Of a stretch of DNA of 64,000 nucleotides, positions 19,296 through 63,592 are shown piece after piece. Each line of letters begins with the position of its first letter. Position 1 is the stretch's first letter. Both the position numbers and the translations under genes were made by a program. The notes under the pieces were generated by a model that was not told the origin of the DNA, did not search any database, and was given only the letters and a program-made list of their open reading frames with translations. The stretch is from Rhizopus arrhizus (Eukaryota; Mucoromycota; Mucoromycetes; Mucorales; Rhizopodaceae): assembly GCA_024220505.1 (NCBI GenBank), contig JAKZZE010000024.1, positions 124,001 through 188,000 of the forward strand. The letters are read 5' to 3'.

Positions 19296-19639
19296 GTTAT
19301 CTGGTGAGAGAGAAAAAGAAAGAATTTTTTGAATGTGACAAACAAACTACGAGGCGTATGCGGATGTTTAATTAGGTTGACGTCATAAAATTGTACAACC
19401 ATATTTTTACAATGTTTCTACTTTAAATTCAGACGATATTAGTATTTTTTGGACGAACCAAAGCTAACTTTCAGATGTCTAGCTTACCCTTGTTGGATGA
19501 AACAAAAATAAAAATCAGACGAAAAAAATTAGTTTTGAGACGAATGGAGGTTTATGTTCAGATTTTTTTTTACCTGTAATGATCTTAATCCTTTCAGAAG
19601 AAAGGAAAACCATGTTTGCTACGGCGATACTTGGATTGG

Positions 19640-20309
19640 AAATGCGATGTAACCTGCAAAGATTTAACTAGGGTGATTCAAGATGATAACTTTAGCAGTG
19701 AAAGAATCAACTTTTTTAGCAGGATTTTTCTTGAAGTCAGAGCAGATGTTACCACGACGGATATCCTTGACGGAGACGTGTTGTCATCAGGTATGTAATT
19801 ACCGTGTCAACCAGAAATGGGGATGAAAGGAACAGATTTGGGATTGAAGCCAATCTTCTTGATGAAGAAGGAGATCTCCTTGACAATGTCGTTGTAACGA
19901 GCTTCGGACCACTTGGATCTTGTTGATAGCAATAACCAATTGACGGACGCCGAGGGTGAAGGCATTAAGAGCGTGTTCACGGGTTTGATCATCCTTAGAA
20001 ATATCAGCAGCATCACCAACAATGATAAGAATTATATGATCGGTTTGAGAAAAGTACCAGTAAATATGGTCTTGATGGGATAAGAGCGTTGAATTCAGCA
20101 ATGATAAGAATAACACGATCGGCCTGAGAAGTACCAGTAATCATGTTCTTGATGAAATCTCTGTGATCAGGAGCATCAATGACAGCGTGGGGTTTCGAGC
20201 TTCAAGAAAGCAATATCGATGGTGGTAATCCGTTCACGTTCGGCCTTAAGCTTATCGAGGACCCAAGCGTACTTGAAAGGGCTCTTACCAAGTTCAGGAT
20301 CTTCCTTCA
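19640..20309 (-). pseudogene. translation elongation factor EF-1alpha pseudogene, rearranged
   Basis: Minus-strand frames match EF-1alpha in order but with frameshifts and stops. The match begins [20 protein letters not shown], followed by a TIDIAF block, [17 protein letters not shown] in another frame, and [49 protein letters not shown] and, after a deletion of roughly 100 residues, [10 protein letters not shown] come next. The first about 45 residues with the P-loop are missing. A block around the ITGTSQAD region is duplicated: about 20020-20075 and 20098-20154 match each other. The upstream end abuts the Fanzor C-terminus without a gap, and the Fanzor frame uses a stop inside this sequence. 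No introns are visible. The left limit is approximate. Confidence 0.85.
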
Positions 20310-22779
20310 CCATCGTTTTTCTTCGGCTTGAAAATTTCCGGTCGTCCTTCTCCCATCCAAACTGACTCAGAGATCGTCATCATATTAGTAGCGACGTTGA
20401 CGTCTCGTTGCCAAACCTTCTTACATTTAGAGCAACCTAGAACACCTTTGCCCTTAAAACAGGGTATTTTGACTACTTTAAGATCATCGAAAAAACAGGA
20501 ACTACACGTCTTTGATGTTTTAAATTCGTCGATCGTCACGACGATCAACTCACCAGCAGCTTCACGTTTTTTCAACGTTGCAAAAAGTTTTCCTATCACC
20601 CCACACCGAAGCCCTTTCATCTTGACCATATCCTTGCCGAAAACACCGGCACCAAAAACGACCAACGGACACTTTTCTTTGTTTTCTTGGAAAGGAAGGG
20701 GTCTTCACTTCAACCTTTCAAAAAAAAAAAAAAAGTCAATAATGTCTATTAAAGAAAGGCTAATTGCTTACTTCTTTTCGTCAGTGCGCAATGATAACCC
20801 TTCATCTTCCTTCTTATCATTCTTGTCTTTCTTCTTCTTCTTTCGCTTTCTCCGTGATCTGTTGTACTTAGCTGTTCCATGAGTCAACATGTTAGCCATC
20901 ATTTCCGGTGCCCTCTGTCGGTCTTGATAAAGCTGGAATCGGTGATGCACAGTGTCTTTGCCATAGAAATCCAGGAGCTTGTCAAGGTGTGTTAGCATGT
21001 GTTTAACATATTGATCGTATGATCCAACTGCTGCTGTTTTTGGTGTGGGAATTTAGGACTCGATCGTCTTGATGCCAGAACACTTTTTTTTTAATTCGAG
21101 TTTTTTGCTATAGACAGTACTACCTGTTAAATGATAATATTCTTTTACAGAGAACTTCCGGATCTGCTTGGCTGAAGCTACGCCAACAACTGCCGTGAAT
21201 AATGATTTACGCCCAGGGTCAAGGAACATTGAATGATATTGATTGTGAACTTCTTCGTAGTTGAAGTCTTCGAGGGTTAATTCAACGTCAGAGCCATGGT
21301 TCATTCTTTCCTTTCGATAAAACACAAAGTCAACAGAAAAGCCATCAGATTTGATTGTATTTCCGAATAGTATATTGTTGTTTTCATTGGGTGTGAGATC
21401 GTCCATACTATTGTAAATTTAAGTAAAAAAGTCTATTATATAATATCATATCATACTTTAAACGTAATTTTTTAAAATTAAAAACACGGTAAAACATATT
21501 AAGTTGATTCTGGTAGCCTTGTGGCAGGGTTTCCTTAATAAAGGGTGCTAATGTACTGTCACTTATATTCACGAACCTCCAATGCATACTCGGAGTTGGT
21601 AACAGGGAAACCAACCTTGGCAGCGGCAATCGCCTGATGTCATAGGCTTTGTGATTGTTGTGCTCGATCTCATATTCCGATAAGATGTTCAGCAGACAAG
21701 GAACAAAGATGTTAGGAGATTCAGACAGAGTTGTAAGAGTCACTCGAGTTGGTATAATATTCTTTAGCGGCAAGAAGGTTTCATCAATAATTTGTTTCCT
21801 TTCTTCGGTAAATACAGGACCTTGAGGCCACACAGAAACTCCTTGACAAACATGTTGGTAAACGTAAAGGACAATTTTTACAACATTTGAACGATCCATT
21901 GACTATGTAGTCTTAGTTATACGTGCTTTTTATAATAGTATCATACTTACTATGAAGATATTTTGTGTTTATAAAATATATACTTGCATATTCTTCATTC
22001 AAAGAGTTCTACTACGTTGTTAGTGTATGTTGTTTGTAGTTGTTTGGACGCTTCCGATATACAATGGCTAACACCACTAGCAAGTTTCTTGTCATAAATA
22101 ATAGTAGGGTAACTTTTTTTAAAACTATTCCAATAATCAAGTAATCCGTGCTGTAAAGAGATGCCATTCGTGACTCGTTGGTTTCTTATAAGTTGTGATA
22201 TTAAATACCAAAAATCCTGTTCATATATTTTATGAGGAATAGGACTATCTAAACGGGCCAAACTGAGTATATAAAAATTCACGAAAAGCTGTGATCTGAC
22301 TATAATATTTCGCACGTCTTCACAAGCAGAGATAACTTTCGATTTAAGTTTAGTTTGATAAGTGCTTTGTACGCATTGGTCAAAAGGTAGCTTTCGCGTA
22401 TATGCCTTATAATTAGGCCCCAAGTGCCTCAGAAACGTTTCTTTTTTTGTTTGTATATGGTTGGGGTAAGCAGGTGAACGAGATGATTTATGTCCTTCTT
22501 GTTTACAGCTACTACAGTTAGCTCAGTCGTATTGCTACCAGTTCTGGGTCTTTTCGCCTTTTTCTTGTCCTGTTTTATTTCATTGGTCTGTTTTCTTTTT
22601 CTAGAGGTACCAACTTTTTAAATAGAAAAATTAGGAAAGGCATACATGAAAAGAGTATAATGCTTACCATCATCTGCGGTGGCTTCGACATAAAATTTGC
22701 ACTTATAAAACTGTTTACTATAATGACCTGGTTCTTTGCAGTCTTTGCATAATGAGTCTTTTTATAACGCGTTAGCTAA
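20294..22779 (-). pseudogene. Fanzor (eukaryotic TnpB-like nuclease) gene, disrupted
   Basis: The minus strand encodes a Fanzor in pieces. At 22779-22668 there is a zinc-knuckle exon (LCKDCKEPGHYSKQFYKC). From 22613 a KR-rich stretch leads into a second knuckle (CSSCKQEGH) and the helical REC-like region down to 21995. From 21899 to 21457 comes a further helical block. A good 49 bp intron (21456-21408) joins it in frame to 21407-21053, which holds LFGNTIKSDGFSVDFVF and the RuvC-I motif LDPGRKSLFTAVVG (Asp codon about 21218-21220). The stretch 20998-20768 is basic, and 20720-20294 holds VTIDEFKTSKTCSSC, GCSKCKKVW and the RuvC-III QRDVNVATN (Asp codon about 20402-20404). Lesions are a 1-nt deletion near 22520, a TGA at 21995-21997, a TAA at 21053-21055 and a probable TGA near 20715. 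The 3' end runs into EF-1alpha sequence. Confidence 0.85.
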
Positions 22780-23520
22780 CTGAAATATCGCGTTTTTTTA
22801 TTTCTTACCACTACTACTGCTTGAAGCGCTATATTATTCTCGTTTTTTAATGACTTCAGATTTTTTATGTTGTATGATTGATTTATATATGTTGGTACAA
22901 ACTGTGGAAAAAAAAGGGTGATTATACGGACATCATTTTTTTAATAACATTATAAAAACTCCCCTTAATTTGGCGTACTTGTTTATTATTTTTAATTACT
23001 ACCCAAATACCTCTCTTAAGTGTATACCCAGTACACGTTTGTACATAAAATTTCACCTTTTTCGTGAGACATATTAACTAATTGTTTATGACAGACATAA
23101 AAACTAGTGAAAACATTAGCTTTCTACATTCGCCATAATCCGATCCTATATCACTATATACGTTTAAACTTTGATTTTTATTTGTAAAAAACTTAATAAC
23201 CACTTTGAGCGCATGATGTCTAATATTGCATCGTTTTAGCCCTGATCAGATCAATAAAAAGTTCAATGGAAGCTAAAAACCCCTTTGGGAATCAAAGGTA
23301 AAAAAGATATGGGAGGAAGAGTGAAGGAAACAAGTGAATGTTACTAGTGAGGGGAAGAGGGTAGCCAATCGAGGAATCTTTGCCCTGATTGGAATGGCGG
23401 TGACGGTTGGTCCTTATCATGGAACAGGTAGTCAAGTTCATAAAGTATAATACAGATGACCGGCCATCGAATAAACCATGGAGAAGCGGAGTGAGATAAA
23501 CATGCTATTCTGTTTGATAA
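22780..23520. other. AT-rich spacer between Fanzor and IS630-like remnants
   Basis: A short open stretch just right of the Fanzor knuckle exon (about 22850-22800, minus strand, ending at a GTAAGAAAT donor) could be a further Fanzor 5' exon. The rest has no recognisable coding sequence. Confidence 0.4.
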
Positions 23521-23522
23521 TT

Positions 23523-24171
23523 TGCTCCTGCCAAACGAAACTCTCCTGACGTTATTGAACTAAGATTTAGAGCTGTTGAGGCGTGAATTAAAGACTCCAA
23601 TATCAGTTTTATGCAAAACTGTATCTTCATTCATGAAGCTGAATTTAATCTTCATACTGTAAGAGGTCAGGGCAGATCAAAGAAAGGTGAGCCCGCAAAA
23701 GTTGTGGTAGCAACCACCAGGGGACCGTCAGTTTCCATACTAGGCGCAATTTGTTCCCTTGGTGTCGTCAATGTTGGGCTGAAGGTAATTAAAGCTGGTA
23801 CAAAGTGGAAAGGATTCATGGCATTTCTTATACACGTCATGAATGTCCTTGATAAACACAACTTGAAGGGTTGTAATTTAGTCATGGATAATGCACCTAT
23901 CCATAAACCTGAAAATATCACAGAGGAGGTCAGCAAGAGGGAGTATAGAATAATATACCTTCCATCTTACTCCCCTTTCTTAAATCCAATAGAAGAGTTT
24001 TGGGCCAAGGTAAAGACACTTGTTCGCAGATCTCCAATGACAAATCGCGATAACTTAGTAGCAAGGATAAGAGAGGCTGCAGAGCAAGTGACTCCTGAGG
24101 ACTGTCAAGGCTGGATTAGGCACGCCGAATCCTTCTTTGAGAGTTGTTTAAATAAAGAAGAACTTCTTTAG
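23523..24171 (+). pseudogene. IS630/Tc1-mariner transposase, catalytic part, inactive
   Basis: The recognisable region begins around 23523 with AKRNSPDVIELRFRAVEA, then a TGA where a Trp is expected. It continues as an open frame from 23611 to the stop at 24171. The DDE_3 fold is clear: NCIFIHEAEFNLHT, SILGAICSLG, LVMDNAPIHKPENI, the YSPFLNPIEEFWAKVK motif and the ending WIRHAESFFESC. The position that is normally the first catalytic Asp (FIDEAGFN in the family) is His here; the second Asp (MDNAPIH) and the Glu (NPIEE) are present. The N-terminal helix-turn-helix domain is missing. With a nonsense codon and a lost catalytic residue it cannot be active. It points away from the Fanzor remnant 0.75 kb to the left. 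Confidence 0.85.
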
Positions 24172-24213
24172 TTCGACCATGCAGTTGAAAGCTCATTGCA
24201 GCTTGGTCGAACT
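24169..24213. repeat. imperfect inverted repeat after the transposase stop
   Basis: AGTTCGACCATGCAG and its near-complement TGCAGCTTGGTCGAACT flank a short loop. Further GTCGAA words follow within 100 bp. It may be part of a transposon end, but no partner repeat was found on the left side of the transposase. Confidence 0.4.
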
Positions 24214-24899
24214 TATTTTATTTTTAGTCGAAATAAAGGTACACAAATGGACAAAACAAGCAAGTTCATTTGGTCGAAATGAGACGTCGAAATTGAAGTG
24301 AATTCGATGGTCGTACCTTCTGGCCCGACGAAGCTGCTGCACGAGCAACGCAAGCAATCAAACGTATACATGACGAAAACTCCTATAGAGAAATCCAGAA
24401 ATCACTTCGATCAGACTAATGCAACCTTTTTTTTCCCTTTTGTTTCATGCTTCTATTTTTCTTTATATTCTTTAATAAGTACAAGCCAACTGGCGATACT
24501 TGAATAAAATATACCATTTACAAAAAAAAAAAAAATTGAAGTGGAAATACTGTAATATGATACTGAGTAAAGCAGACAGAAAAGGCTAATTAGACTTGTT
24601 CAAGCGCTATAGGATAACCAGCCATGCGATGGTATTCAGTAAATGCATAATTTTAACTCTAATAAAATCAATCCATATGTATCGCTGGGGGGCCATCAGA
24701 AATACTCTGTCAAGAAAATGCAAAGGCTCGACTCAGTAAATTTTATTTAATTACATTTGATAATCAATGATATTCTGAGAAGCCATGCTTTTCAAACAGG
24801 CGCAAACTTCTTTCTAAGAGTCATCTATAGTCGTCTATGGTGGCTTTGAATGTGCCAGTCATAATAAAAGGGGTATAGGTTTATTAATATGTAGCAAAT
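24214..24899. other. spacer with a short unidentified exon-like stretch
   Basis: Between about 24297 and 24415 the plus strand can be read as FDGRTFWPDEAAARATQAIK and onwards to a stop. It looks more protein-like than its surroundings, but it has no recognisable family or splice partners. Nothing else was seen. Confidence 0.35.
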
Positions 24900-43692: not shown

Positions 43693-46600
43693 CTATCGTC
43701 TAGGCTTTCTACGAAGATAGACAAACGATAAAAAGACAAAGCAATTGAAAACAAAAAAGGCAATCAAGATACCAAAGTTACGCCACTTGTGTGCCGCATC
43801 CCAATCAAATCGAGTAGAGTAAAACTCGGGTCCGGAGCTATAGGCACAGTAACCGCAGGTACCTGTGGCCTGAGGATCAGCTATATATCCAGGAGCACCA
43901 TAAGAAAAGTAAGCCTTGGTATATTCTCCGCAGGTGGTATTCGGAGGTGCTTGGAAAGTGATGAGATCTTCGTTAGTACAAGTGACCTTTAGGTTGGCCA
44001 ATTCATTGACAGCAAGGCCTTCAATGTAATAGTGAAAAGGATCGAGCCAGTACATCCATGAGCTCCAAAATTTAGGCATTTGTGAGGGTGCTTGCATCAT
44101 ACCGGCAAACAAGATGAGCATTGACATGATCAGTGGGTTAATGACCGAGGCCATCAAGGGAGATTCAGAAAATGCAGCAATCACAAAACCAAGTGAGACA
44201 GCCCAGCAGACAAGGACAGAGAAGGTGATGTAAAAGTAACCGGCGGCCTCAGAGGCAGAACTCATACCTGAGGTCCAATAGAAGCCAAACATGAAGCAAG
44301 CCGAGAAGAAAAAGATATAGGGCAACTCAACCAAAAGAGCAGAGATACCCCAGGGCAGCCAACTGTAATAGCGAGAGGCGTATTCCCTTCTAAAATACAA
44401 TCGTTCAGTGATAAATTTGGGCTGAGCCAAGATGATGAGTGTCATGGCCATGATAAAGGTACCAAAGAGAGCAAAGAGCTTGTTCAGTAAATCAGAGGAG
44501 GAGGAACCAAGCTTCCAATAGGTGAAACCGGTGACGAGGGCAGTAAACATCACGTTCAAGAAACGACCAATGTTGTACTCAGGTGAACGCCAGTAGGCAA
44601 GGGCCATTCGCTTGTGAACCAACTTGAATTGGGTCCACATTGGGGTCGCATAAGTCTGAGCTTCTCGCGTAGGGTTCGGGTCGGAGGCTTGATGGATGCC
44701 TTCGAGTTCTTGAACAAGAGCCTTGGCCTCTGCGGATCGTTCCCAAATGTCGGCCCAATCTGCCTTGGCCTTACCAGCCGTACCGGCACCGACACATTCA
44801 AGGATATATTCAGCAGGATTGGCATCAGGAGAACAGATCGGCCCACCGTTGGACTGGAAATAATCGATCATTGTCTGAGAGTCCTTGCCGATCTCACCAT
44901 AGTAAGCAGTACGACCACCACGCACTAAAAGCAAGAGGTGATCAAAGTGTTCAAAGAGAATAGCAGAAGGTTGGTGAATGGTACAGAGCACTGGCCATCC
45001 AGAGTCTGCCAATTTACGAATGAAGCGAATGATGTTGTAAGAGGATTGAGCGTCCAGACCAGAGGTGGGTTCATCCAAAAAGAGCAGCTTGGGCTTACCC
45101 ACCAATTCCATACCGATCGTCAATCGCTTGCGTTCCTCAACCGAGATACCGTAACCCATCTCGACCAAACCGATCTGAGCATCGCCAATGTCCTCCATTT
45201 CCAAGAGCTCCAAGATCTTTTCAACATAGGCATCCTTTTCTTCCTTGGGCACCTCGCTGGGCTGACGCAGGTAAGCCGAGAATCGAAGGGCCTCACGGAC
45301 CGTGACGGCAGGTTGGTGGACATCGGTTTGTTCACAGTACCCAGTGATCCGTTCGAAATCGGTCATCAACGCCTCATTGTTCAAATACACGCGACCTTCG
45401 ACCTTGCCGATCGTCTTTCGACGTGCCAGGACATCCAGCAAGGTCGTCTTGCCCGCGCCCGAGGACCCCATGAGGGCCGTGAGATGACCGGGACGAACGA
45501 GACCGCTGACGTTGTTCAAGAGCTGAAGTTGACCGCCCTTGACAGGCACAGTGTAATTGATATTTTGCCAAGAAAACGTGGTTCCGGTCGAGACCTGGCC
45601 CATCTCACTGTTGATATTCGCCTGCTTTCGACGACGTTCAGCCTCTTCTTCTGCCGTTCGAGGCTTAGGCGCCTTTCCTGGCAGGTACAACTTGGTCACC
45701 GTCCCGGCCTTGCTGAGACCGCCGAATTCCATCATCATGGCCGTCAGGGCGGTGAAGAACAAAAAGAAGGCAATGACCACAATGAAATCGGGAGCCCACA
45801 TTTGTTCGGGCTTGTAGCTCAAGTAATCGTTCAGGTAATCATCTCCCGCCACAAAGCTGGATCCAGGACGACCCCCGGCCATGGTACACGTCTTGTAGTT
45901 CCAGTCGTCGTATCCGGGACCATAAGGGACAGCGTTCCCCATACCTTCACAACTGTATTCCTGGCCGTGAAGCTCGTTGATCAGCAGCGCCTTGTAGCCG
46001 TAGGTGAGCGGATTGATGTAATAGATCCAAAAGAGCCAAGGATGCATCTTGTTGTAGGGGATGGTGTAGCCTGTGTAGGATGTGACAGCGATCAAGACCA
46101 CGCCTGAGAGTTGGGTGGCCAAGAAGAAACTCGAGGTAGAGGATCCAAAGAAACGGAAGAAGCCGTTCATACACATGTTGATAAAGAAGAGAATGATAAA
46201 GAAACTAAAGAAGGCGCCTGCTGTCAGTTTGAGACCCATCATAAAGTAAGCACAGATCTCAAACAGCAAGACTTGGACGACCGCATAGGGCACGTCCATC
46301 ACGACTTGAGCAATGTAGAATGCAGAGGGACGGTAGAGGGCATACTGTTTGTGTTTTTCCAAGATCGGTCTACCCATCAAGAAAGCAACCAGTTCAGATT
46401 GTGAGATGAAGGCATTAAATAGCAAAGCAAAAAAGAGAGCACCACCACGCGAGAAGGCACCGGCTCCATCAGCTTGCATTTTAAAAAAACAAGAGGCGGT
46501 GATCAAGGATTGGATGAGAATCGTACCGTAACGAGAGATGAGGGCGCCGATATCAGTCAGGTTGAGGTAATATTGACGAATGGTCAGCGCCTTGACCTGC

Positions 46601-48144
46601 TGGTAGAACGAGGCTGTATAGGGCGCTCGTTTATTGGCGCGCTTTTGATGTTCAGCATCCACCGCCTGTCGGAAGAGATCGCCGGGTTTTTCATTCTCCA
46701 CCGATCGTTCATAGGCTTCAAAGTCTGAAAGCATCTGCTTGTGAATCTCAGACTGCAGATAGAGACGTTCGAAATCCTGTGCAAACTGGGGCGCGGTCGC
46801 TTCGTAGCCCTCTCGGATCTCACGTTCGTTGGGGTTACACAGACCGGTCAAATAGTCTGGGATGCTCTTACGCTTGGGGCAGTGGAAACCAAGAGACTCA
46901 AAATAGGACTGCGCCAGCTCGGTCGGACCAAAATAGATGCATCGACCCTCATCGAGCAGCAAGACTTTATCAAAAAGAGCATAGATACTGTTTGAGGCTT
47001 GGTACAAGGTCGCGATCGTTGTCTTTTTGAGCACGTCGGTCATGATACGCAGGGAGCGAGTGTAATCCAGGGCAGAGGCAGCATCCAGACCACGCGTGGA
47101 GCAATCCCAGCAGTTGATCGAACTCGAAGTCGTCATTTGTTCAGCAATTGACATTCGCTTACGTTCACCGCCTGAAAGACCACGGACATAGGCATTGCCG
47201 ACCATGGTGTTCATTTGCTTTGTTAAACCCAGCATGTTGCCAAGCATATAAAGTACTTTATTCACAAATTCAGCACGCGTCTCGTTCGGCAGACGGTTAC
47301 CGGGGGTCTTCATGCGAAGGGCAAATTGAAGGGTCTGTTTGGCGGTGAGGGTAGGATAATGCTGATCTTCTTCTTCATTGTAGCAGACTTGGCCACGGAA
47401 CCGCTTAGCGAACGTCTGGGCATCAATACCGCCGTAGCTGACCTGTCCGTCCACGTCGGTATATGAACCACGCATGTTGGCCATTACTTTTAAAAAGGTT
47501 GTGCAACCTGCACCGGGACGACCGAGGACGAGTAACATTTCGCCTTCTTTGCAGTGGCCCGTCAAGTCGTTCAAGATCACCTTTTTGTTCTTGCTGACAC
47601 CCAAGCCAAACATCTTCCAGAATTGAAGAAAGGTAAAGACGGTAGGGATAGTATGAGCATCCGCTGCTTGGCCCTGTTCAAACTCGATGAGGTCTGGAAA
47701 GTGGTTTTGATTTTTACAAGCCCTACCTTGACTGTTAAATTTTTCCAAGAAATACCCAAATTTTTAGGCAAATGACCTGCTGAAGCATGTTCATCACGCA
47801 GACCGTTTAAAAACTCATCTAGATTGAATTCATTGGAAGTAGCGTTGCCTTCTTCAAGTGAATTGGCATGAATAGAAGATTTTCGACTGATCCTTGATAG
47901 TTCTCGTTTCAGATCAACATATTCTTGTTTCGCAGCTAAAGCGGTCATTAGAATAAATTTTTTTTATAATTTTGTGTTTGATCTTACATTCAATATCAAC
48001 AGCATTGGCTGTAGGTTCACCAAAGGTACCGTCTTCTTGATTGTTTGTTTGATAAATCGTCTTGGTTGATTCATCTGTTGAAGAGGTCTGATCCATTTCT
48101 TTCGCATATCCTCCAAAAGATGGAAGATCTTGATTCAAAGTCAT
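43693..48144 (-). CDS. full-size PDR-type ABC transporter (ABCG), about 1448 aa
   Basis: Three exons (48144-47988, 47935-47727, 47673-43693) join in phase. The long frame opens farther upstream at 47748, but that reads through an intron; the true junction gives NLTVKGQAADAHTIPTV, as in PDR proteins. Order is NBD1-TMD1-NBD2-TMD2. NBD1 has the PDR-type Walker A GRPGAGCTTFLKV, signature VRGLSGGERKRMSIAE and Walker B INCWDCSTRGLDAASAL. NBD2 has canonical Walker A GSSGAGKTTLLDVLA, degenerate signature GYGISVEERKRLTIG and Walker B LLFLDEPTSGLDAQSS. Both TMDs end in CDR-type extracellular Cys-rich loops. Such pumps export lipophilic drugs and lipids at the plasma membrane. Codon use is GC-richer than neighbours, and the antisense strand is open for up to 389 codons as a result. 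Confidence 0.96.
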
Positions 48145-58802: not shown

Positions 58803-58860
58803 GAATTATATAGTCCGCTTCCTTTTGAAATAAATTAATCACTAATTTTAAGAGGACGGC

Positions 58861-60264
58861 ATGGTTCTTTCCAATATTCACCACTTGGATACAGAGGGTG
58901 TCCCTAGGGATTCTCCCAACTCTACACCAACGGTTCTCTTCAGTACATCTGCCACAGAGATCTCAACACCCACATCTGGTTTTCGTGATGCTGTCCAGGG
59001 CACGCTTCCCACCCACGCACCTCGAGTTTTCAAACCTTCCTCCTCCCGACATGCCAATTCCAACAATCGCCCCGCCACCTCTGCTACCTCTACTCCTACC
59101 TACATTTCAATCTTCACCGATGCTCTATCCCCTGCCACTCCTCTGTCTTATGCCACCGGTTCCTCTGACTGCTCCGTCACTTACACTGTTCCTGCCAACC
59201 TTCGCCATTTGGACGTTCCTTTGCTCAACAAACTCCGCCAACAATTTCCTTATGGTGTTGGCTACGCCATTCAACATAAGGAACAAGGCCACTCATTGTC
59301 GATTGAGATTGCTTTGAATTCCAATGAAACTTGCAACAAAGCCATTGCCGAACCCATTGTGATCGACGAAGTCCCTTTCCCGGCCACTCGTACTTTCTCT
59401 ACTACACTCACACGCTTCAATTTTAGTGGTGTACCTATGGAGTCCCCCGTCGAAACGCGGGACACCATCCTGCAGTTGTTTTCCCGTTATGGCACTGTCA
59501 TCGATATCGTATTGCACCTTGACGATATTTCTTCCCAATGGTTCCGCGGTAATGGCCACGTCCTCGTTGATTTACAGGACACTTCCAACGACTGTAGTCC
59601 ACAGTACAAACTTGACTATAACGACAAGACGAGTATTCTCGTCACTTGGTCCCGTATGCCAAAGCATTGCCGCTATTGCAAGGCTATGGGCCACACTCGA
59701 GATTCCTGTCCTGAACGACCTCGCGAAAATCGTACCTGTTTCACTTGTGGTGTTCGCGGACACCTCAGCATCGACTGTACTAGAGCACCGCCTTCAGAAC
59801 TCGCTCATTCCAAGCGTTCTCGTCAAGTCGCTCCGGAATCCCGCATCTCTTCCCGCAACATTGTCACTCCCACGTCCATCCTACAACGTGAAACCACATC
59901 GATCGCCGCTCCTATAGACCAACCTACCCCGTCCAGCACCCCTAGTACTGCAATCCCAGACTCAACCATCAATTCCAGCAAATTCTCCCCGTCAAATTCA
60001 GTTGACACCAACACCTCCACACTCCCTGATAACGCAAATCTACCAGTATTATCCGCAACTGAAGATCATGACATGGACATTAACGGCAATATCAGCACCA
60101 CCTCCAGTCATTCTGATCTACACCCTCCTACATCCGCTGTCGAAACCAACGCAGTGCTTAACACTATCAACTCACAACAGCCCAGCCCAGCCCCAGCCGC
60201 CCCTGTTCGCCGATCCACTCGGGCAAACTTTGGTAAGCCCGGAGTCAGACTAGGGGACGAATAA
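58861..60264 (+). CDS. LINE ORF1 protein (gag-like, two CCHC knuckles), 467 aa
   Basis: An uninterrupted frame from MVLSNIHHLDTEG. The N-terminal 110 residues are Ser/Thr/Pro-rich. Residues about 190-260 have an RRM-like layout (TLTRFNFSGVPMES, ILQLFSRYGTVIDIVLHL, GNGHVLVDL). Two CCHC zinc knuckles follow, CRYCKAMGHTRDSC and CFTCGVRGHLSIDC, both with perfect spacing, then a long S/T/P tail. LINE ORF1 proteins bind the element RNA and chaperone reverse transcription. No stop or frameshift is seen, suggesting recent activity. Confidence 0.9.
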   Translation: MVLSNIHHLDTEGVPRDSPNSTPTVLFSTSATEISTPTSGFRDAVQGTLPTHAPRVFKPSSSRHANSNNRPATSATSTPTYISIFTDALSPATPLSYATGSSDCSVTYTVPANLRHLDVPLLNKLRQQFPYGVGYAIQHKEQGHSLSIEIALNSNETCNKAIAEPIVIDEVPFPATRTFSTTLTRFNFSGVPMESPVETRDTILQLFSRYGTVIDIVLHLDDISSQWFRGNGHVLVDLQDTSNDCSPQYKLDYNDKTSILVTWSRMPKHCRYCKAMGHTRDSCPERPRENRTCFTCGVRGHLSIDCTRAPPSELAHSKRSRQVAPESRISSRNIVTPTSILQRETTSIAAPIDQPTPSSTPSTAIPDSTINSSKFSPSNSVDTNTSTLPDNANLPVLSATEDHDMDINGNISTTSSHSDLHPPTSAVETNAVLNTINSQQPSPAPAAPVRRSTRANFGKPGVRLGDE

Positions 60265-63200
60265 CACTTCCCAGTGTTCTCTTCCTCCACTCCTTATATC
60301 TAACCATATGCATATGAATAATACTAATACTATGAACTATAACCAATACGATAATATTACTAACCTTTCCTCTCCTAACAATTCTACTAACCTATCCCCT
60401 CGATCTACCTCCCACCGTTCAATCCCGCTCCAAATTGGTTCTCTCAACTGCCGACATCTGCTTAAAACTAGCGCACCATCCGTTACTTCATCCTTCATTC
60501 ACTACCTTCGCCACCAATCCTTCGATATCCTCACATTACAAGATACAAACTCCTCTTCCTTAGAATCTCAACAACAACTCGACCTACAGTTTCAGACAAA
60601 CTCATCTATTTGGTCTAAATACTGCGGTATAGTTAGCCTTAACCCTGCTCTCATTCTCTCCGACCAATTTGTTACCACTGATGGTCGCTTCATCTGTTGC
60701 CAAGTGTCTCACCAATCCAATTTTTTTGAGCCTTTCCTTCTTATCACGTTGTACGCTCCTCCCTCAGCATCCGAGCGTCGTGAGTTCTTCCATAGGACCC
60801 TTCAACTGCCTCTGTTCTCCCATATTGAGTCTTTCTATAATCCCTTCGAATCTGACCCTCAGTTTACTGCTCCAAGCGGTGACTTCTCCCAGATTATTAT
60901 CACCGGCGACTTCAACTATCATCCCCATTCTTCTCGACAATTGTCCCGCCATTCGGACACTTCTTCCCCTACCACTGCTCAGTCGCGGTGGCATCAATTT
61001 GTTAACACATACCTAACAGAATGTGTCCACCCTTCTTTGGACCAAACTCTACCTACCTTCCGTAGAGATAATGTGTCCACTACCATTGATTACATCTTCC
61101 TGTCACAGTCTCTTGCATCCCATCGCACTCGCTCTTCGGTAGCCTTCATTAATAGCCTTTGGACTGATCATGCCTTACTGAGTGTTTCCTTTAAATTTGG
61201 CAGTTCACAACATGGAAAAGGCTTTTGGCGAGCTAACCCATTTTTAGCAACTAATCGTTTCTTTATTAAGCGCCTGAAATCCACTTTAGACCAATTCTGC
61301 TCTTCTGTACTTGACATTCATCTTCCAATTGAGGGTCCCGCACCCACCTCAGCCACCTCGCCTCAGGATCTATGGGATCAAGTGAAACAGGAAACTAAAC
61401 GAATCGCTCGCTCAGTGGGGCGACGACAAGCATCCTGGCGACAAAATACACTCGATAGTCTACAATCCCAACGTAATCATCTCCTAACAAATCCTTCCTC
61501 TCCCGACTCCTTACATCCCCAGTTATCCTCGATTGAAGCCAAAATTAGTCATATCCAACAGGATATTGCAGATTCCAAAGCGCTTAAGGCACGAAAACAT
61601 TGGCAAGAACATGGGGAACTCTCTGCCGGTTACCTTAAACGCATAATTGATCGTCAGTTTTCTTCCCGTTATATCGAACAACTCCAACATCCAGATGATC
61701 CGTCCCGTATCTGTAAGACACCTGCTGAACTACAGGATGCTACTGTTGAGTTTTACCGTTCCTTGTTCACTCCTTCACCAATCGATCAGGACTCCGTTGA
61801 CAGCCTTCTGGAGACTATTCCCATATCCGATAGTATTACTACAAATGACGCTGATTTGCTTCTTGAACCCTTTACGCTTGATGACCTACTAAACGCTACT
61901 AACCGTACTCCTAGACGCAGCAGCCCCGGCATGGATGGTCTCCCTTATGAAATCCTAAAGCTTTTGTTCTCTCACAACGGCATCTCTCGTCTGGTTGTCC
62001 AGGTCTTCAACGATGCTCTACTCACCGGAGTTTTCCCACCCTCTTGGCAGACTTCATGTGTTTCTCTGTTACCAAAAAAAGGTGATCTGACAACACTCCG
62101 GAATTGGCGTCCAATTGCCCTCATCAATACTGACGCCAAAGTCTTCACCCGCCTACTAAATTCTAGACTCATGAATACTCTTGAAACCAAGATCTGCCAA
62201 CATCAGCTAGGCTTCATGCCTGGGCGTTTCATTGGAGAAAATGGCCGCATCCTCCAACTGGCAATGACCGCAGCCTCCATCAGTCGTTCTTCCGCTGTTG
62301 GAATGCTTTTAGATCAAGAAAAAGCCTATGACCGCGTCCACCCAGATTATCTTTCTCAAGTCCTGTCTCGTTTTGGAGTACCCCCTCAACTGAATAATTC
62401 CATCATGAACCTTTTCTTCTCCACTCAGGTAAGTATTAACGTTAATGGTTTCCTAACCAAACCCTTCCAAGCACAGCGAGGCTTGCGCCAAGGGGACCCA
62501 CTTAGTCCTTTGCTCTTCAATCTCGCCTTTGACCCGTTCCTTCGCCTCATAGATCAAGATGCATCCTTCCAGGGCTTCAACTTTGCCCCGCCCCAATTCG
62601 TAGAACCTCCTCCTCCTCACCCGCCTTATTCAAATATTCCTTCCGCTTCCACACCTCCTGCAGTTAAAGCACTCGCCTACGCCGACGATGTTCTCGTGAT
62701 ACTCAGTTCCTTTCAAGACTTCGACCGTCTCCAAGCTGCCATCAGCACATATGCAGCTGCTTCCAACGCTCATCTCAACTACAACAAAACACAAGCCTTC
62801 TCTCTGAGTGGTGCCACTCTGCCGGAATGGCAGCAATTTCTGACAGACCACCATATCTCCACATGGCACGACGCCCAATCTCTGTCGCCTTTACGATATC
62901 TTGGCTACCCCGTTTACAGCTCCCCTCAACAGCGTAATGTTTTCATGGAGCAACTTATTACGTCCATCAGCAATGCATGCAACATCCACTCCCAACGCCA
63001 ACTGTCTATTCGAGGTAGGGCAACCGTCCTCAACTCACTTATTCTATCTCGACTGTGGCATGTTCTCCGATTGGTACCTCTAGCGAAGTCTCAGCTTTCT
63101 CGTATTCGCAGCATTTCGTCCAGATTTATGAATGGGGGCTCTTTCCCTCGCATTTCCTATGCAACACTCATACTACCGAGGACCGCCGGTGGGGTGAAGC

Positions 63201-63574
63201 TACTTGATCCTGAATCCCAATACAAAGCTCTACAGTGGAGATGGCTCTTGCATCTACTACAGCCTTTGGGCATTGAGTGTACTGTTACTGACTTTCCTTT
63301 ACCTAGCATTCCCTACTGTAAGTATCTTTTACAATTGCAATCTGCTGCGCCCGATGACTTACCATCATCATACATTTGGCCACTGTTGTTTCCCAGCTTT
63401 CGGTCTTCATATCTGTCTACTAAATCCTTGCATAGCTTTTCTACTTTATTCAAATCTATTGATTCAATTACCTCCTCTACTCTTGATGATATTGTACTTT
63501 CCCCTACCACTTATCTGTGCTTACCTTTGTCAATTATTATCTCTCCTTCTTGTACATCTTCTCCATTACTGTTT
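58861..63574 (+). mobile_element. LINE (non-LTR retrotransposon), two ORFs, 3' part cut off by an LTR element
   Basis: ORF1 and ORF2 are intact in succession, with a 43 bp gap. Base composition is C-rich compared with neighbouring genes. ORF2 stops matching LINE sequence at about 63574, where an LTR begins. The C-terminal zf-RVT region, 3' UTR and tail are not in the window. The 5' limit is uncertain and may lie up to a few hundred bp left of 58861. Confidence 0.85.
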
Positions 63575-63592
63575 TGCCAAGTATTAAAATAA
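60308..63592 (+). CDS. LINE ORF2 polyprotein (endonuclease + reverse transcriptase), C-terminally truncated
   Basis: The frame is open for 1094 codons from MHMNNTNTMNYNQ. The N-terminal APE-type endonuclease shows LNCRHLLK, LTLQDTNSSS, IITGDFNYHP, IDYIFLSQSL and WTDHALL. In the second motif the usual Glu is Asp. The reverse transcriptase has NWRPIALINTDAKVFTRLL and GFMPGRFIGEN. Motif A is LDQEKAYDRV, motif B is LRQGDPLSPLLF and the catalytic motif C is AYADDVLVIL. After the thumb region (LSIRGRATVLNSLILSRLWH) the frame runs on to SSPLLF and then into LTR sequence, which supplies the last few codons and stop. The C-terminal Cys/His module found in related LINEs is missing here. Confidence 0.92.
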   Translation: MHMNNTNTMNYNQYDNITNLSSPNNSTNLSPRSTSHRSIPLQIGSLNCRHLLKTSAPSVTSSFIHYLRHQSFDILTLQDTNSSSLESQQQLDLQFQTNSSIWSKYCGIVSLNPALILSDQFVTTDGRFICCQVSHQSNFFEPFLLITLYAPPSASERREFFHRTLQLPLFSHIESFYNPFESDPQFTAPSGDFSQIIITGDFNYHPHSSRQLSRHSDTSSPTTAQSRWHQFVNTYLTECVHPSLDQTLPTFRRDNVSTTIDYIFLSQSLASHRTRSSVAFINSLWTDHALLSVSFKFGSSQHGKGFWRANPFLATNRFFIKRLKSTLDQFCSSVLDIHLPIEGPAPTSATSPQDLWDQVKQETKRIARSVGRRQASWRQNTLDSLQSQRNHLLTNPSSPDSLHPQLSSIEAKISHIQQDIADSKALKARKHWQEHGELSAGYLKRIIDRQFSSRYIEQLQHPDDPSRICKTPAELQDATVEFYRSLFTPSPIDQDSVDSLLETIPISDSITTNDADLLLEPFTLDDLLNATNRTPRRSSPGMDGLPYEILKLLFSHNGISRLVVQVFNDALLTGVFPPSWQTSCVSLLPKKGDLTTLRNWRPIALINTDAKVFTRLLNSRLMNTLETKICQHQLGFMPGRFIGENGRILQLAMTAASISRSSAVGMLLDQEKAYDRVHPDYLSQVLSRFGVPPQLNNSIMNLFFSTQVSINVNGFLTKPFQAQRGLRQGDPLSPLLFNLAFDPFLRLIDQDASFQGFNFAPPQFVEPPPPHPPYSNIPSASTPPAVKALAYADDVLVILSSFQDFDRLQAAISTYAAASNAHLNYNKTQAFSLSGATLPEWQQFLTDHHISTWHDAQSLSPLRYLGYPVYSSPQQRNVFMEQLITSISNACNIHSQRQLSIRGRATVLNSLILSRLWHVLRLVPLAKSQLSRIRSISSRFMNGGSFPRISYATLILPRTAGGVKLLDPESQYKALQWRWLLHLLQPLGIECTVTDFPLPSIPYCKYLLQLQSAAPDDLPSSYIWPLLFPSFRSSYLSTKSLHSFSTLFKSIDSITSSTLDDIVLSPTTYLCLPLSIIISPSCTSSPLLFCQVLK

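Follow-up and report, generated by a model that had tools for sequence, protein, structure and literature searches.

A broken, probable Fanzor1 copy in a Tc1/mariner-type element of Rhizopus arrhizus, with a captured EF-1alpha fragment and a conserved 3' element

A 2013 report by Bao and Jurka described Fanzor1 from Mucor, Rhizopus and Phycomyces as well as from Mariner elements, and gives the Fanzor motif as D-X(125,275)-[TS][TS]XX-C4-X(5,50)-RD (PMC3627910). A DPG motif is found in Fanzors, together with a Glu that precedes the zinc finger by six residues; in typical TnpBs this Glu stands ~50 residues upstream (PMC10711439). In SpuFz1, metal is coordinated by D383, E541 and D606. Its RNA is located between the stop codon and the right end and extends 14-15 nt beyond the conserved region, and guide-matching DNA is cut next to the motif CATA (PMC10432273). 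Three Fanzor1 omegaRNAs of 75-150 nt with a seven-pair first stem-loop, and an Asn at the third catalytic position of GtFz1, were described in PMC11423790.

We analysed a stretch of 64,000 nucleotides of R. arrhizus (assembly GCA_024220505.1, contig JAKZZE010000024.1, positions 124,001 to 188,000), called the window below. An earlier note, made from the sequence alone, had placed a decayed Fanzor on its minus strand at 22779-20294. Our sequence comparison confirmed this observation, and the segment 22890-20294 on the minus strand can be read as a broken Fanzor1 copy. Location and strand stood; the true span is a bit longer and lies inside a larger mobile element. The window copy is a dead member of a known family. 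The observations made here are the capture of an EF-1alpha fragment and a conserved 3' element with predictive power in the genome.

Identity, active site and damage of the Fanzor copy

A splice model was built on GT-AG motifs common to sister copies, not on transcripts. It predicts six exons and five GT-AG introns, with 783 codons in total:

22809-22890, minus strand: Fanzor exon 1, without its start codon (splice model from sister copies)
22668-22757, minus strand: Fanzor exon 2, first knuckle-like motif, CX2CX4HX7C (splice model; zf-CCHC 0.031)
21951-22613, minus strand: Fanzor exon 3, second knuckle-like motif and helical region (splice model)
21457-21902, minus strand: Fanzor exon 4, remainder of the N-terminal half (splice model)
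20772-21407, minus strand: Fanzor exon 5, SDGFSVDFVF strand and RuvC-I LDPGRKS (splice model; region profile to SpuFz1 1.2e-4)
20294-20714, minus strand: Fanzor exon 6, GAGVFG, the IDEF Glu, C4 zinc ribbon and RuvC-III QRD (PF07282 2.1e-9; SpuFz1 1.3e-7)

The profile search for Fanzor/TnpB proposed in the earlier note was run. The last exon matched Pfam PF07282 (Cas12f1-like_TNB) at 2.1e-9, above the curated cut-off, and through this match a C4 zinc ribbon (OrfB_Zn_ribbon/TNB) was located between the RuvC parts. The NCBIfam models IS607_TnpB (9.5e-6) and guided_TnpB (1.8e-5) responded far under their curated cut-offs. Searching solved structures with a single sequence gave weak matches only (the best, 0.024, was an unrelated protein; SpuFz1 0.065). 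When a profile of seven sequences, all from the source genome, was used, the last exon matched SpuFz1 of Spizellomyces best (1.3e-7) and GtFz1 second (7e-6), and among the matches listed both outranked every TnpB entry. The TnpB-like L79 (1.6e-4) and LaTranC (2.9e-4) ranked above PpFz1 (9.6e-4), the one solved mucoralean Fanzor, which counts against the Fanzor1 explanation. The profile of the RuvC-I region matched SpuFz1 at 1.2e-4 and PpFz1 at 0.88; the window RuvC-I piece used alone as query gave no match. An Rfam search of the window also gave no match. In sum, the PF07282 match, the best profile match to SpuFz1 and the presence of the quoted motifs bore out a decayed Fanzor on the minus strand.

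The catalytic residues can be read directly. RuvC-I of the window copy is LDPGRKS, so the DPG motif is present, and DPG was aligned in both families compared. Spacings were measured on the sister copy L009. There, 215 residues lie from the Asp of DPG to the Glu of IDEF, and the C-terminal part reads E-x6-CxxC-x20-CxxC-x6-D, with the Glu six residues ahead of the first ribbon Cys and not ~50 upstream. The suggestion that the IDEF Glu is the relocated catalytic Glu agrees with the rule for Fanzors in PMC10711439. The L009 spacings lie within the motif of Bao and Jurka; they are x213 and x20 where the narrower expression of PMC10711439 has x(120,160) and x(12,18), and so fall outside it. The DE, the TS, the four Cys and the R of RD are common to three families of the source genome. 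GAGVFG has Ala in the window as quoted earlier, and this position is Ala, Asp or Leu across the three families. Because the catalytic Glu is relocated and the position is variable, the Ala is no defect. The relative L020 has RN in place of RD at the third catalytic position (L020 5013-5024), where GtFz1 likewise has Asn; L020 is decayed, and this may be chance.

The zinc knuckles are the weakest part of the Fanzor motif evidence. Two had been claimed. The first is knuckle-like and matched Pfam zf-CCHC at only 0.031; the second has the spacing CX2CX4HX6C in sister copies and is without its last Cys in the window copy.

Once spliced, the window copy still lacks a start codon, and its reading is broken by four premature stop codons and by two indel runs that shift the frame. 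Judged from its sequence, it cannot make a Fanzor protein, as had been supposed. The earlier count of at least three lesions was right in sum, but the idea that every frame break is a lesion was ruled out, five of the breaks being introns by splice motif.

The mobile element, its relatives and the EF-1alpha fragment

The Fanzor copy lies in a composite element, for which the following features were assigned:

19408-24554, minus strand: composite element, best inferred limits, Tc1/mariner-type ends (3' end TACAATGTTTC, 5' end TACAGTATTTCCACTTCAA)
19408-19434, minus strand: 3' terminal repeat, with the genomic flank past it as presumed guide
19552-19640, minus strand: conserved element, candidate omegaRNA scaffold core (model R1 8e-16, the window being a training member)
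19793-20307, minus strand: EF-1alpha fragment part 1, which holds the Fanzor stop codon (77-82% to five host EF-1alpha genes)
19649-19779, minus strand: EF-1alpha fragment part 2 (80-82% to the same five host genes)
23587-24168, plus strand: C-terminal piece of a Tc1/mariner transposase, DDE_3 (PF13358 6e-25)
24183-24300, minus strand: mariner terminal repeat, inner part (joined directly to the Fanzor part in L016 and L017)
24536-24554, minus strand: 5' terminal repeat, outer part (separated by the poly-A-tailed insert 24301-24535)

The copy set consisted of the window copy and L009-L019, 12 copies carrying the last exon, with L014, L015, L018 and L019 lacking the 5' part. The exon series was full in eight copies and partial in four. 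A further locus, L033 (G000:C34:1942134-1942915), has exon 5 sequence and the 3' end without the last exon. It is a likely thirteenth copy that looks internally deleted, and it was left out of the 12-copy count.

The 3' end at 19408 (TACAGTATTTCTACTTTAAATTCAGAC and variants) was reached by 8 of the 11 sister copies (L014 via an inverted second piece), and the sequence past it differs among the copies seen. On the 5' side, 24554 is the terminal repeat of a genomic Tc1/mariner element (whole copy L032), and the 5' end resembles mariner ends in L017, L018 and L032. The mariner repeat is found on the 5' side of L017 and at both ends of L018; the window copy has TA at both ends with ~15 similar outer bases. 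L016 and L017 have one mariner repeat-Fanzor junction in common, a whole mariner adjoins the Fanzor part in L013, and L009, L011 and L013 stop matching the window near 23524. Because other copies carry different 5' parts, the 5' limit (24554) is the least sure boundary, and the mariner piece 23526-24554 could be a separate neighbour. A complete DDE transposase of its own is absent from the element. Only the 194-codon C-terminal piece is present within it, and the element would therefore be non-autonomous. The insert 24301-24535 (~235 bases, poly-A tail, flanked by the short direct repeat TTGAAGTG) splits the 5' mariner repeat and looks like a piece of a retroposed transcript.

The EF-1alpha fragment separates the Fanzor gene from the conserved element at 19640-19552. 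Its match begins at the Fanzor 3' end, at about codon 44 of the host gene, and ~340 bases of host EF-1alpha that would join its two parts are absent. Inside the fragment, read in another frame, lies the Fanzor stop codon (20296-20294). The piece was found in 11 of the 12 copies, being shortened in L013 and L016; in L011 it is mostly lost. In the window copy, L009 and L012, the three that were compared, the other side of the Fanzor gene holds no EF-1alpha. It is unusual for a piece of a host gene to stand between a Fanzor and its presumed RNA, and the arrangement tests the need for adjacency of gene and RNA. Among the five host EF-1alpha genes, one (L027 1580-2461) has only 294 codons open versus ~460 in the others, and is either a pseudogene or an assembly error.

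None of the 12 copies with the last exon reads through. L009 has a single early stop; L010 and L011 are free of early stops, and each carries one frame-breaking indel run. For nine copies pooled, pN/pS was 0.39 in frame versus 0.75 and 0.89 in the shifted frames; it was 0.68-0.85 in the EF-1alpha part. The difference between frames shows that selection acted on the protein as the family spread. Copies were on average ~95% identical in exons and 94% identical in both the introns and the EF-1alpha part.

Intact sister copies had been expected elsewhere in the genome. The search found none among the 12 last-exon copies of the window family. Intact relatives occur in a sister family, FzB, with at least eight loci in which all three exons are open end to end. 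The genome holds at least 43 TNB matches, of which at least 42 are over the curated cut-off. FzB is ~29% identical to the window family in the last exon; its ends are TACAGT (41 pattern places), and its terminal repeats are related to the 3' end of the window family. Eight FzB copies were fetched. Spliced, three give readings of 849-869 residues and two end after 43; the other three were unreadable, the splice mark being missing or beyond the fetched stretch. At least ten FzB loci, including L026 and L039, show a recurrent break after ~30-41 residues of exon 1, which is either a common frame change or an extra intron. A viral relative (L040) was 32% identical over 53 residues only.

Elsewhere in the window, a LINE-like pair of frames, both open, lies at 58852-63592 on the plus strand (a zinc knuckle protein first, 8.4e-7; then an endonuclease with reverse transcriptase, RVT_1 2.4e-34). 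A long open frame at 43696-47763 on the minus strand corresponds to a CDR/PDR-type ABC transporter (ABC2_membrane 1.8e-87).

The conserved 3' element

By sequence conservation, 19640-19552 is the best candidate for a guide-RNA scaffold. In L020 (49% identity in the last exon) a sequence like the one that follows EF-1alpha in the window starts 13 bases past the stop codon (match at 0.002 over ten loci). Weak matches were found at the same place in L034 (0.043) and L021 (1.3), and farther on in L023 (4.7).

A covariance model, R1, was made from eight sequences (four of the window family plus L020, L021, L023 and L034). It was tested on 17 stretches outside the training set, each lying downstream of a divergent Fanzor match. 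In 15 of the 17 the best match was at the end nearest the Fanzor and on its strand (14 within 30 bases, L044 at 118). The misses were L041 and L053, the latter showing the motif by eye. Six of the placed matches had E<0.1 and nine, weak alone, had E>0.1; the two strongest, L044 and L046, are apparently close relatives of the training members L023 and L034. A rough binomial for 14 of 17 gave 9e-18, which is overstated since the loci are related. In 199,519 bases from 20 sources, R1 matched below 0.4 only at the window and at four training members. That FzB has the element was rejected: no R1 match up to E 10 was found in L024, L025 and L036-L039, and L035, also of FzB, gave one weak match (0.42) on the other strand.

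A 20-base motif pattern was found at 36 places genome-wide versus 11 for the reversed control, and therefore much of the three-mismatch tail is chance. With two mismatches or fewer there were 11 places, seven of them from the pattern's own source set. Three of the remaining four directly follow Fanzor remains that were not among the matches listed in the protein searches (best E 1.8e-8, 5.7e-11 and 0.002 versus five short sequences, L060 being the weakest). The fourth, L061 (G000:C21:499945), has a copy of the element with no Fanzor found in the preceding ~790 bases, and is a candidate ghost guide-RNA locus. Four identical motif matches with three mismatches each (L062 at G000:C1:6243, C17:912159, C27:563366 and C32:5693) sit ~5-7 kb from contig ends, and the one that was read scores 0.0053 with R1. 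They are perhaps a subtelomeric family carrying the element.

The structural support, which comes from predicted folds, is modest. A two-hairpin structure from the window copy had 84.7% of cells paired versus 80.6% in shuffles (4 of 500 as high), and four double-change pairs, a number that 31 of the 500 shuffles also reached. No double change was found within the window family alone, the fold of the element had a z of -1.8, no stable common fold was found in the wider alignment, and the predicted hairpins differ between families. The likeness of the predicted structure to the known omegaRNA stem-loop is suggestive only. The conserved element lies ~145 bases before the end of the mobile element, and a scaffold running through it would exceed the 75-150 nt of known omegaRNAs.

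Proposed history, alternatives and known systems

We consider it very likely that the locus is a dead Fanzor1 in a Tc1/mariner-type transposon, which when alive would have been guided by its flank, was joined to EF-1alpha before it spread and decayed later. The live protein would bind RNA read from the 3' end of the element into the flank, the flank serving as guide. Its RuvC domain would cut DNA that matches the flank, either the empty insertion site or the sister chromatid, and the catalytic triad would be the Asp of DPG, the Glu of IDEF and the Asp of QRD. Such cutting would help retention of the element through repair, and, the ends being at TA, the guide of each copy would be the site of its own insertion. 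The host EF-1alpha fragment would have been joined to the 3' end of the gene, between gene and presumed scaffold, before the family spread, and the copies would have decayed afterwards.

Several other readings were weighed. The conserved element might be a 3' UTR element of the Fanzor mRNA (for processing, stability or polyadenylation) and not an omegaRNA scaffold. Its place directly after the stop, ~145 bases before the element end in the window copy, and hairpins that differ between families would fit this. The omegaRNA of SpuFz1, however, is located between the stop codon and the right end and continues into the flank (PMC10432273), and copies of the element occur with no Fanzor seen upstream (~790 bases read at L061, ~340 at L062), so that we regard a 3' UTR role as possible and rather doubtful. 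The EF-1alpha piece could also be the flank of an old insertion into an EF-1alpha gene, the chimera having been carried on as a record of a past target and guide. EF-1alpha does begin right at the Fanzor 3' end, near codon 44 of the host gene. This origin is nevertheless unlikely: there is no upstream EF-1alpha across the gene in the window copy, L009 or L012, the conserved element and the 3' terminal repeat sit beyond the EF-1alpha piece, and L020, with no EF-1alpha seen after its gene, has the conserved element 13 bases past the stop.

With regard to the gene itself, five GT-AG introns (predicted from splice motifs), SpuFz1 and GtFz1 at the top of the profile ranking, the relocated Glu and at least 42 TNB loci over cut-off across the same genome argue against a recently acquired bacterial-type TnpB (or Fanzor2) or contamination in place of a eukaryotic Fanzor1. 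Although the NCBIfam models that responded are TnpB models and L79 and LaTranC stood above PpFz1 in the profile search, we give this reading hardly any credence. A more far-reaching proposal, which we consider improbable, is that the broken loci are still ghost loci. Their guide RNAs, each taking its guide from its own flank, would be used in trans by related living Fanzors with the same scaffold core, and the captured EF-1alpha piece would have uncoupled the gene from the RNA, letting both evolve apart. With at least 42 TNB loci, intact FzB copies and the conserved element in one genome, guide-RNA structure, cross-family use and ghost loci are testable in a single fungus.

Among known systems, the best profile match is SpuFz1 (Spizellomyces punctatus, Spu-1 elements, 'ghost' loci). 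It is like the window Fanzor in domain order, in the Glu before the ribbon, in RD, in the C-terminal GRPEVF and in having inverted repeats. In contrast to SpuFz1, the window Fanzor has five predicted introns and N-terminal knuckle-like motifs, and its element has Tc1/mariner-type ends and an EF-1alpha insert and is dead. PpFz1, from the mucoralean Parasitella parasitica, is farther away than SpuFz1 and GtFz1 by its profile matches (9.6e-4 and 0.88). PpFz1 has an FRI domain of ~100 residues (PMC11423790); a lysine-rich stretch was seen in the sequence of the window Fanzor. The Mariner elements PGv-1 and PUl-4 of Bao and Jurka (PMC3627910) are like the element here in their mariner ends with TA and in carrying a Fanzor with or without transposase, and Mucor MCi-2 (PMC3627910) has likewise a common 3' part and variable 5' parts. 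For PGv-1, PUl-4 and the MCi families, the available part of PMC3627910 mentions no host-gene fragment between the Fanzor and the 3' end, whereas the window element has one.
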